Positions 55,112 to 62,291 of a stretch of 62,291 bases of DNA are shown in pieces (positions within the stretch are counted from its first letter, which is position 1; each line of letters begins with the position of its first letter). Position numbers and translations under genes: made by a program. Source of the stretch: Oscillospiraceae bacterium (GTDB lineage Bacteria; Bacillota; Clostridia; Oscillospirales; Ruminococcaceae); contig JAIEDQ010000060.1 in the NCBI GenBank assembly GCA_029067895.1, positions 1 through 62,291 of the forward strand, in the 5' to 3' direction. A model generated the notes under the pieces. It saw only the letters and a program-made list of their open reading frames with translations, had not been told where the DNA came from and ran no database searches.

Positions 55112-55140
55112 TTGACATTTTCTTCAATATGGTTTATACT
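55112..55140 (+). promoter_or_regulatory. Consensus sigma-A promoter of the Ter operon
   Basis: TTGACA (55112-55117), 17 nt, TATACT (55135-55140). Confidence 0.75.
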
Positions 55141-55251
55141 TAATATGTATTGCTATGCTTTTAGGCTTGACTGTAACTTATCACAGGCAGAGCGCGGTAT
55201 AATGCCCCGCGCGTCATTGCCTTAACTTTTACCCGAAAGGCGGTTGTTAAA

Positions 55252-55893
55252 ATGTCAGAATTTTCAAGACGGCTTCCCGTTTATCTTTTGCTTGACGTCT
55301 CAGGCTCCATGCAGGGCGACCCTATCGAGGCGGTAAGACACGGCGTCCGCGCCCTTGTTTCCGAGCTTAGAGGAGACCCTCAGGCTCTGGAGACCGCTTA
55401 TCTTTCCGTAATTACATTTAATTCCAGCGCAAGACAGGTCACCCCGCTTACCGAGCTTATGCTTTTTAAAGAGCCCCAGCTTTCCGCAGGCGGTGCGACC
55501 GCTCTGGGTGCGGCTCTGAGACTGCTTTCGGACTGCATAAGATCCGAGGTGAGAAAGTCCACCGAGACCCAGAAGGGCGACTGGAGACCCCTTGTGTTTA
55601 TCCTCACGGACGGCGCTCCCACCGACGACTGGCGGGAGGCTGCCGCAATGCTCAAATCCACAAAGCCTGCGAACATCATCGCCTGCGCCGCGGGAGCATA
55701 TGCCGACACCACCGTACTTAAAGAGATCACCGAGTGCGTACTGATGATGAATACCCTTTCCGCGGGAGACTTGGCGCAGTTCTTTGCTTGGGTATCAAGC
55801 TCCGTCAAGATGTCCTCGAAGAGCCTTGACGCTAAGCCGGGCGCAAATATCGAGCTTCCCCCGCCGCCGCAGGGTTTTGTCATTGTTCCGTAA
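55252..55893 (+). CDS. terY: TerY-like VWA domain protein
   Basis: VYLLLDVSGSMQGDPIEAVRHGVRALVSELRGDPQALETAYLSVITF...LSAGGATALGAAL...FILTDGAPTDDW. Confidence 0.92.
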   Translation: MSEFSRRLPVYLLLDVSGSMQGDPIEAVRHGVRALVSELRGDPQALETAYLSVITFNSSARQVTPLTELMLFKEPQLSAGGATALGAALRLLSDCIRSEVRKSTETQKGDWRPLVFILTDGAPTDDWREAAAMLKSTKPANIIACAAGAYADTTVLKEITECVLMMNTLSAGDLAQFFAWVSSSVKMSSKSLDAKPGANIELPPPPQGFVIVP

Positions 55894-55909
55894 CGCTTGG
55901 GAGGATCAG

Positions 55910-57226
55910 ATGGATAATAATACCAATAAAATTCAGACGGAAACGGCGGCTGTAACTCCCACGGAGGAGGAAAACGCTCCTGCAAAGGCTTCGGCTGATT
56001 CTGCCGCACCTGTTGTACCCGACAAGGAAAAGCTTTCCGACAGCGACGTTACCGCTCACACCGCCGCAATGTGGAAATACAATCCCGTGCCCGAAAGTCC
56101 CGAACCGTACCCCGAGTCGATTTTCCGCTCGGAAACGGCGGGAAGCTTTTCGGTGACGGCGTCGGCTGTCCGCGGAAAAAAGCACAAGCACGACGGTTCA
56201 AACCGCGACGACAGCTTTGCCTTTGAGATCGCGGACGATATCCTTATCGCCGCAGTTTCGGACGGAGCAGGTTCTAAGCCCTTTTCGCGTATAGGCGCAA
56301 AGGTTTCCTGCGAAGCCGTGATAAAATACTCGAAAATACGTCTTGAAGCTATAAAGAGGGATTTTCCCCAATTCCGAAAGGACTTGGGCGGCGCTCTCAA
56401 CAGCAGCGGGTTCGGTGCGGTATGTTCCCGGATAGCAGGTATGCTTCGGGACAGCTGCGCGGAGGCGTTTGCTTCCGTTGAAGCGGCTCTGGAAAAGAGA
56501 GTTGACGATCCCGCATTTGAAGCCGCTGTGGGCAGAAAGCCCGAACTGAAAGATTTTTCCTGCACTCTTCTGGTAACGGTGATAATCCCCGTTGAGACCG
56601 AAAACGGCAGGGAGTACCTTACCGCGTCCGTTCAGCTTGGTGACGGCATGATCGCCGCGATAGACGAAAACGCGGAGCAGAACCCGCTGATAATCCTCGG
56701 AGACGCGGACAGCGGCAGCTTTGCGGGCGAGACCGAGTTCATCACCTCGGAGCAGTTCAGAAATCCCGAAAGCCTTATGAGCCGCACCAAAATACGCCGC
56801 GGAAAGCTTACCTCGCTTATGATGATGACCGACGGCGTTGCCGACGACTATTACCCCAACAATCCCCAGCTTCTGCGGCTTGCACTGGACTTGAAGCTTA
56901 ACGGCATTATGCCGCTTGACAGCGGGGATACTTCCGAAACAGCGGAGGAAATCGCCGTCCCGAAGCCTGTGTCCTACCCTTGGGTAAACGACGGGGACGT
57001 TCTTTATGCGCTTCAGTATAGTAAAAACGTGCTGTCCGAAACGGGGCTGACCCTTGAGGAGCTTTGGAAAAACAAGGCTTTGCAGAAAAAAGCGTCGCTG
57101 GAGGGATTCGGCATAGTCCACGAAAAGAACGCGGCGGAAATGCTGAACATTTGGCTTGACAACTACGTTGAGCGGGGTTCGTTCGACGACAGGACATTGC
57201 TGTTAGTAAATATTTTAAACTTTTAA
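55910..57226 (+). CDS. PP2C-family serine/threonine phosphatase (TerY-P triad)
   Basis: KHDGSNRDDSFAFEIADDILIAAVSDGAGSKPFSRIGAKVSCEAV; LMMMTDGVADDYY; FDDRTLLLVNI. Confidence 0.9.
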   Translation: MDNNTNKIQTETAAVTPTEEENAPAKASADSAAPVVPDKEKLSDSDVTAHTAAMWKYNPVPESPEPYPESIFRSETAGSFSVTASAVRGKKHKHDGSNRDDSFAFEIADDILIAAVSDGAGSKPFSRIGAKVSCEAVIKYSKIRLEAIKRDFPQFRKDLGGALNSSGFGAVCSRIAGMLRDSCAEAFASVEAALEKRVDDPAFEAAVGRKPELKDFSCTLLVTVIIPVETENGREYLTASVQLGDGMIAAIDENAEQNPLIILGDADSGSFAGETEFITSEQFRNPESLMSRTKIRRGKLTSLMMMTDGVADDYYPNNPQLLRLALDLKLNGIMPLDSGDTSETAEEIAVPKPVSYPWVNDGDVLYALQYSKNVLSETGLTLEELWKNKALQKKASLEGFGIVHEKNAAEMLNIWLDNYVERGSFDDRTLLLVNILNF

Positions 57227-60829: not shown

Positions 60830-60855
60830 AAGTTTAGCGGAAAGGCGGTGATATT

Positions 60856-62169
60856 TTGGCGGAAAACAATATCCAGAGGCTTCTGGACAACCCACGCAGT
60901 TCGGGAATTGTGAATATTCCCGCAGGTGAGTACGAGGGAAATTTTATTGTGACCAAAAGCTGTACGATAAACGGAAACGGCGCGGTGCTGTGCAATTCTT
61001 CGGGACCCGTGCTTGTTATTGCCGCGGAAAACGTTACGGTAAACAATATAAAGGTTGAACTGACAAGCGACGGTATCCCTTACGAGCAGATGGTCTCGGT
61101 GTACTGCAAATACGGCGATACGAAATTTTCAGATGTGGAAATAAACGGTATGCTGTTGGGCATCGAGGGCGAGGAGCAGTACTGGGGCTTGCCGCGTATC
61201 GTTTCTCTTGGCAGACTTCCCGCCGAAAGGGAGCAGTCCTTTGCTCTGGAGCTTTACGCGCCTGTTGAGGCTGAGATATCGGGAGAACTCTATAACGTAA
61301 GCCTGTCTGCGGATACGCTGTCCTCAGGTTTCAACACCGTCACGCTTACGGTGGGAAAGGTTCGCAGCGGCTCGCTGATATACGGATATATACGCATCAG
61401 GTCGGCAGTTGAACGGAAGATAGTCATAAGCGGCGAGATAGGTGATGAGAACGAGCCTATGTCCGCAAGCTATATGCTCTGCTCAATTCAGCGGGACGCT
61501 CCAATTCGCCACGGAGAAATGCTTGAACGGCTTGACCCCGTTCAGCTTGCCACTCTTCCCGAACCCGAACCGGAAACGGTGGAGTCCGCCTATGAACCGA
61601 TAGACGAACCTGTCACTTACAGCAATGACGGCGGTTACAAAGAGGAAAACGTGCTTATCCCAAGCGGAAAGAGGATACCGCTTTCACTAAAGCAGTACAA
61701 AATAGAGCTTCTCTATCGGGCTTCAAGAACGTCCGCCGACATTGACGGATACCTTTTCATGCTTAATGAAAACGGAACTGTAAGCTCGAACAAGCACATG
61801 ATATTTTTCGGCAACGACCGTTCCGACTGCGGCAGCGTGAAGTACCTCAACGCCGCGGACAAAAGGTCGATGTATATTGATTTCGGCAGGGTACCGCGGG
61901 ACGTTACCCGCATGGTAATGCTGTTCTCCATTTACGGAAACAAGCCCGACCAGCTTTTCAGTATGCTTGACGACGCGGAAATAAGCGTCCTGTGCGAAAA
62001 CGGCGTGCATATGCATATGCCCCTCGAAAAAGGGATACAGTGCCGCACCATACTTGCTCTGGGCTTTGAGAAAACCGACGGAGTGTGGGAAATGATATCG
62101 TCCGGAAAGGGCGTGGCTATGTCCCTTGCGGACATCTGCCGAAGCTACGGGGTGACGGTCATTTCGTAG
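60856..62169 (+). CDS. Beta-helix-like N-terminus fused to C-terminal TerD domain
   Basis: N-term SSGIVNIPAGEYEGNFIVTKSCTINGNGAVL; C-term PSGKRIPLSLKQYKIELLYRASRTSADIDGYLFMLNENGTVSSNKHMIFFGND...GSVKYL...IDFGRVPRDVTRMVMLFSIYG...GVWEMISSGKGVAMSLADICRSYGVTV. Confidence 0.85.
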   Translation: MAENNIQRLLDNPRSSGIVNIPAGEYEGNFIVTKSCTINGNGAVLCNSSGPVLVIAAENVTVNNIKVELTSDGIPYEQMVSVYCKYGDTKFSDVEINGMLLGIEGEEQYWGLPRIVSLGRLPAEREQSFALELYAPVEAEISGELYNVSLSADTLSSGFNTVTLTVGKVRSGSLIYGYIRIRSAVERKIVISGEIGDENEPMSASYMLCSIQRDAPIRHGEMLERLDPVQLATLPEPEPETVESAYEPIDEPVTYSNDGGYKEENVLIPSGKRIPLSLKQYKIELLYRASRTSADIDGYLFMLNENGTVSSNKHMIFFGNDRSDCGSVKYLNAADKRSMYIDFGRVPRDVTRMVMLFSIYGNKPDQLFSMLDDAEISVLCENGVHMHMPLEKGIQCRTILALGFEKTDGVWEMISSGKGVAMSLADICRSYGVTVIS

Positions 62170-62183
62170 AAAGGAATGACGGA

Positions 62184-62291
62184 ATGAACAGATCGAAACG
62201 GAAAGCATTGGCGGTTCTTGCGGTGCTTGTTATGACGTGCTTCAGCGGCTGTGCCGAAAGCGGCGAGGTCACGGAAGAAACTGCAAACGCC
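62184..62291 (+). CDS. Putative lipoprotein, N-terminus only (runs off window)
   Basis: MNRSKRKALAVLAVLVMTCFSGCAESGEVTEETANA; signal peptide and lipobox-like CFSGC; AAAGGA RBS region. Confidence 0.65.
   Translation, partial: MNRSKRKALAVLAVLVMTCFSGCAESGEVTEETANA

Follow-up and report, generated by a model that had tools for sequence, protein, structure and literature searches.

A TerY-P operon in Ruminococcaceae that retains a degenerate Ca2+-ATPase relative and a TerD fusion lacking the Ca2+ loop

Results and discussion

Organization of the locus

The window analyzed here (62,291 bp) is the whole of contig C189 of the Oscillospiraceae bacterium genome G000 (2.68 Mb in 231 contigs). At the right end of this contig, five closely packed genes lie behind a promoter on the plus strand and are followed by the start of a lipoprotein gene. 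The features of this region, with domains assigned by Pfam and NCBIfam, are as follows:

55112–55140, plus strand: sigma-70-type promoter TTGACA-17-TATACT (11 of 12 matches; top-scoring site in the region)
55252–55893, plus strand: TerY-like VWA protein, 213 aa (open reading frame; VWA domain match 2e-13)
55910–57226, plus strand: PP2C-type phosphatase (start ATG at 55910; PP2C_2 match 1.5e-33)
57236–58717, plus strand: Ser/Thr kinase with C-terminal Zn ribbon (Pkinase match 2e-10)
58757–60829, plus strand: pseudo-P-type (Ca2+-ATPase-derived) protein, 690 aa (E1-E2_ATPase match 7e-15)
60856–62169, plus strand: fusion of NosD-like beta-helix, beta-sandwich and TerD, 437 aa (TerD 6e-20, NosD 1.3e-6)
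62184–62291, plus strand: N-terminus of a lipoprotein, first 36 codons, cut by the contig end (hydrophobic stretch and FSGC lipobox recognized by eye)

The start codon of the pseudo-P-type protein (the “pseudo-pump” below) is probably the ATG at 58766. A search with Rfam matched no element. The promoter named in the initial annotation is confirmed, and a near-perfect −35/−10 pair (10–12 of 12 matches; shuffled sequence gives mostly 8–9 of 12) lies 85–140 nt 5′ of the VWA start in 13 of the 14 members of the genus that were checked; the operon promoter is thus a conserved feature of the genus.

The same annotation counted six genes in the operon, included the lipoprotein as a part of the system, and had the operon running on past the window. 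Five of the six stand: their order is identical in every contig of the genus long enough to span the operon. The lipoprotein is not co-conserved; it is limited to G000 and G160 (this species and its nearest relative), and other species carry unrelated nitroreductase, metallo-beta-lactamase-fold, or DUF4037 genes at its position, so it was rejected as a core component. Since the window is the entire contig, the point at which the operon seems to continue is the end of the assembly, and the remainder is supplied by a near-identical relative (L002/L074), which has a full 567-aa lipoprotein with an RHS-repeat-like stretch, followed by a peptidyl-prolyl isomerase gene. In L002 (4984–6696) the RHS-like stretch lies near residue 360 (PF05593, barely above the cutoff).

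Back to back with the operon lies a divergent gene for a DUF389 membrane protein (53574–54998) with promoter-like sites of its own. Beyond it, 48761–53527 holds [FeFe]-hydrogenase-like genes, a ferredoxin and PAS domains, then a SpoIIE-type phosphatase gene that is followed by a strong terminator (53538–53572); this group of genes looks like a hydrogenase-linked sensory module.

The fusion gene is present in 20 of the 21 genomes of the genus, the exception being 78% complete. Among 398 genomes of the family, 41 have the kinase and 39 the fusion, and the two are found together in 35, where about four would be expected (Fisher p about 1e-39 over genomes, which are not independent of one another; at the genus level p is 5e-13, the kinase being found in 13 genera and the fusion in 12, of which 11 have both). 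In several genomes the two genes lie on different contigs, and because they co-occur even when unlinked, linkage alone does not explain the association. A search of 391 further genomes from this class found no member of the kinase family at E ≤ 1e-40. NosD-TerD fusions are also found elsewhere in the phylum, some of them beside the triad, and the full operon is therefore not specific to the family.

The TerY-P triad

TerY-P triads (Anantharaman, Iyer and Aravind 2012, as described in PMC11090510 and PMC4978471) are defined in PMC11090510 as a TerY-like VWA protein, a PP2C phosphatase, and a Ser/Thr kinase that carries a Zn ribbon at its C-terminus. The first three genes of the operon had been identified as such a triad, and all three parts fit this published definition (PMC11090510). 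Their catalytic or metal-binding motifs are intact in 35–40 homologs: the VWA MIDAS motif (DxSGS...T...D) is kept in 35 homologs, the PP2C protein retains its metal-binding aspartate motifs (SDGAGS, LGDG, TDG, and DDRT), and the kinase HSDLSNNN and DID motifs are conserved across 40 homologs. The Zn ribbon at the kinase C-terminus, C..C...CPFCG, was read from its cysteine pairs. Thus, as in known triads, all three proteins are encoded in one operon with a Zn-ribbon kinase and intact active-site motifs; unlike in those, none of the restriction or DNA-processing partners was seen here, and the pseudo-pump and the NosD-TerD fusion are present instead.

Within kinase residues 30–46, an invariant lysine (K33) stands beside Gly-Gly, and a glutamine (Q46) occupies the possible position of the beta-3 lysine in 40 of 40 homologs; the catalytic lysine may thus have been relocated, as it is in WNK kinases. 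In genus g123 (L124–L127) the kinase and PP2C genes occur with neither pump nor TerD, beside conserved genes of ∼281 and ∼660/685 aa, an arrangement that may be another use of the same pair.

A P-type ATPase relative with eroded catalytic motifs

The pseudo-pump belongs by descent to the P-type ATPase superfamily, as both its sequence and its predicted fold indicate. It is related over the A, N, and P domains to P2-type Ca2+-ATPases (LMCA1, SERCA, PMR1-type), its best sequence match in the PDB being LMCA1 (6zhh, E = 7e-25) across those three domains. The AlphaFold model keeps the P-type fold (pLDDT 85, pTM 0.82; nearest structure 6ln5, SERCA2b in E1, TM 0.75), a fold that is partly borrowed because live pumps are among the alignment rows used in the prediction. 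The pseudo-pump differs from those pumps in the loss of catalytic residues and of helices M6–M10.

Ten residues were scored (in SERCA terms the TGES-type Glu, the M4 Glu, D351/K352/T353, K515, the TGD Asp, D703, N706, and D707). All ten are kept in 24 live relatives, 0–4 in the 17 proteins of the genus, and 2–5 in six proteins of a second genus (g3), so that the “dead pump” of the initial annotation holds for the genus as a whole. The TGES-type Glu and the GDG Asp are each missing from all 23 dead copies and the M4 Glu from all 17 of the genus; the phosphorylated Asp is still present in 4 of the 17 genus copies and in 6 of 6 from g3. By hydropathy the genus proteins have M1–M5, with M6–M10 gone; one of the five helices scores under the cutoff in L074 and in the copy from the window, and L087 has an additional weak segment. 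About M1–M6 are present in the two copies tested from g3. A match to the C-terminal pump domain is confined to the 14 aligned sequences of full length. The protein therefore lacks DKTGT, the TGES-type Glu, GDGxND, and the ten transmembrane helices of a functional pump, and it is no pump by known chemistry.

The gene is nevertheless very unlikely to be a pseudogene. Its frame is open (675–715 aa) in 17 of 17 copies from the genus and intact in 6 of 6 from g3, and dN/dS is 0.09–0.22 for pairs within the genus and 0.18–0.27 in g3, values that led us to reject pseudogene decay. The pseudo-pump is under purifying selection, and its gene has been kept by selection across two dozen species. The corresponding values are 0.04–0.08 for live pumps and 0.02–0.08 for the kinase of the genus; the pseudo-pump thus evolves faster than the triad, under relaxed constraint.

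That constraint has shifted within the protein. With domain limits set from the structure model and motifs, mean pairwise identity falls between live pumps and the genus from 89 to 33% in P1, from 77 to 43% in P2, and from 83 to 33% in M5; in the N domain it is 48% in the genus, 48% in live pumps, and 56% in g3, and 13 of its positions that vary among live pumps hardly vary in the genus. By this comparison the N domain is conserved to the same degree as in live pumps, with the P domain and helices decayed. The N-domain conservation could reflect structure instead of docking, and selective retention of the pseudo-pump in itself says nothing about which role it serves.

The NosD-TerD fusion

The TerD domain of the fusion scores above the gathering threshold of PF02342, and it shares the TerD fold and DxD motif with KP-TerD (2kxt/2kxv) and the Streptomyces TerD (3ibz). 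It differs from both in having a NosD-like beta-helix added at the N-terminus and in lacking the GDNxTGxGDGDDE loop, which carries most ligands of both Ca2+ sites. In KP-TerD these sites comprise residues 40–42, 78, 79, and 89 and residues 29, 82, 84, and 88 (PMC8779313), and a profile alignment to 2kxt and 3ibz leaves the fusion without most of the segment that carries residues 78–89. In the loci compared, none of the fusions has the loop, and 24 of 24 intact standalone TerDs have it. The fusion is the sole TerD in 18 of the 20 genomes of the genus that have any; in G000 it is likewise the sole TerD, and its Ca2+ loop is deleted. From this sequence evidence the TerD domain of the fusion has very probably lost Ca2+ binding.

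The fusion had also been labeled surface-like. No signal peptide is apparent by eye at its N-terminus (MAENNIQRLLDNP); the label was dropped, and with it the idea of a surface or exported protein.

Fuller operons in relatives

In other genera, the operon that carries the triad also encodes an intact pump of ∼900 aa and TerDs that have the Ca2+ loop, and outside the family (L138–L141) the triad, an intact pump, three TerDs, and a NosD-TerD fusion lie in one operon. L138 has in addition genes for AIM24, a C-C bond lyase, PRTase_2/TRSP, StiP/PELOTA, and a HAD phosphatase; several of these belong to the published Ter-dependent stress systems (summarized in PMC7824862). An AIM24-like gene of 226 aa lies among the TerD genes in L138, L139, and L141 (PF01987 in L138).

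Like such operons (e.g., L138–L141), that of the genus unites homologs of the triad, the pump, TerD, and the NosD-TerD fusion; the genus differs in having no Ca2+-binding TerDs there, mostly no metabolite enzymes, and a dead pump. Clear matches to PRTase_2 (above cutoff) and StiP were found in only 2 of 21 genomes of the genus (G151 and G154), and this metabolite module is absent from G000, whose assembly is 89% complete. G151 (L092) and G154 (contig C101) have a second Ter cluster besides the reduced operon, with TelA, YceG, three Ca2+-loop TerDs, an intact pump, PRTase_2, and StiP. The genes added to the triad had been taken for a non-standard set; this is only partly right, as intact pumps and TerDs are regular neighbors of the triad in relatives, and what is non-standard here is that the Ca2+ functions of the pump and of TerD are lost. 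From this distribution we infer that the operon of the genus is best read as a reduced descendant of a fuller Ter/TerY-P operon.

In trees of the triad and fusion, g3 groups next to G021, a genome with a live pump; this position suggests that the pump was lost twice, and with the first tree an AU test rejected a single dead-pump clade (p = 0.0067). With more g3 genomes, p was 0.23 for the triad alone, 0.16 for triad and fusion, and 0.045 for the fusion alone; in the tree of the pump itself, all dead copies group together and have long branches. Two independent pump deaths were not upheld, since the AU tests disagree and the pump tree unites the dead copies.

Proposed function

We hold with moderate confidence that this is a reduced, Ca2+-independent Ter/TerY-P stress-signaling operon whose pump has turned into a membrane scaffold or receptor. 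What the sequences themselves show is a constant gene order, the disappearance of motifs, helices, and the Ca2+ loop, purifying selection, retained N-domain conservation, and the co-occurrence of fusion and kinase; the function is inferred from them. The presumed ancestor, still represented in relatives, would have combined a VWA-PP2C-kinase switch with a working Ca2+-ATPase, Ca2+-binding TerDs, and a NosD-TerD fusion; in some relatives these are joined by enzymes with a presumed role in producing a nucleoside-like signal. In the genus, most of the metabolite enzymes and Ca2+-binding TerDs are missing, the remaining TerD domain is without most ligands of both known Ca2+ sites, and the pump has become a pseudoenzyme in which five helices anchor cytosolic A, N, and P domains to the membrane. 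Such a protein would probably act at the membrane as a receptor or docking platform, with the N and A domains as the likeliest contact or ligand surfaces; the kinase and phosphatase would act on or through it, the VWA protein and the soluble NosD-TerD fusion would be adaptors, and the output would no longer include Ca2+ transport by the pseudo-pump. The membrane-spanning phospho-signaling complex suggested at the outset is plausible in these terms. A more specific version can be offered only tentatively: the Ca2+-ATPase was converted, possibly twice in parallel, to a pseudo-pump whose N domain is a sensor or docking module of the phospho-switch, and with the loss of Ca2+ binding by TerD a Ca2+-handling stress system was rewired to be Ca2+-independent.

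The pseudo-pump might alternatively be a regulatory partner of a separate, intact Ca2+-ATPase, pairing with that pump and keeping it switched off as long as neither kinase nor phosphatase has altered the pseudo-pump. An intact ∼900-aa pump with all motifs and Cation_ATPase_C is indeed encoded elsewhere in G000 (contig C108), most genomes of the genus have such a separate pump, and the fold of the pseudo-pump is predicted to be retained; however, the intact pump is unlinked to the operon, and most P-type pumps are known to work as monomers. We consider this explanation unlikely. We are equally doubtful of an anti-phage or stress-defense cassette of TerY-P type, in which the dead pump and NosD-TerD would sense membrane damage or act as its triggers. 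An association of TerY-P triads with restriction systems has been described, and modules resembling TerY-P are reported to act as stand-alone defense (PMC11090510; PMC4978471); against this, PADLOC gave only weak, generic kinase matches, and the locus is conserved through the genus, where neither mobile genes nor a nuclease were noticed next to it, in contrast to typical defense islands. That the pump gene is a decaying relic carried along in the operon, as its eroded catalytic motifs and poorly conserved transmembrane helices might suggest, is strongly disfavored by the open frames in every copy, dN/dS well below 1, and N-domain conservation equal to that of live pumps. The phosphorylated Asp kept in some copies could speak for a protein that still hydrolyzes ATP or transports by altered chemistry, but this is very improbable given the universal loss of the TGES-type Glu and GDG Asp and, in the genus, of the M4 Glu and M6–M10.

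Significance

TerY-P triads, TerD proteins, and Ca2+-ATPases are already known, and the combination of triad, Ca2+-ATPase, and TerD is not new in the phylum, since it also occurs in other families with an intact pump. What is new here is the loss of catalytic residues and helices from the pump and of the TerD Ca2+ loop, with the genes kept in the operon. Our literature search, whose coverage is incomplete and does not include the 2012 Ter review, turned up no TerY-P operon described as carrying a conserved pseudo-P-type ATPase, nor, within the same incomplete coverage, any conserved bacterial pseudo-P-type ATPase; this would be an uncommon documented case of one. The lineage also bears on the targets of TerY-P triads: its pump has lost transport and kept its place in the operon, which would separate the signaling role of the pump from Ca2+ transport, and the parts still preserved (the N domain and the fusion partner) would point to the contact surface of the switch. 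That selection has retained the dead pump suggests that it is now a membrane scaffold or sensor and not a transporter.
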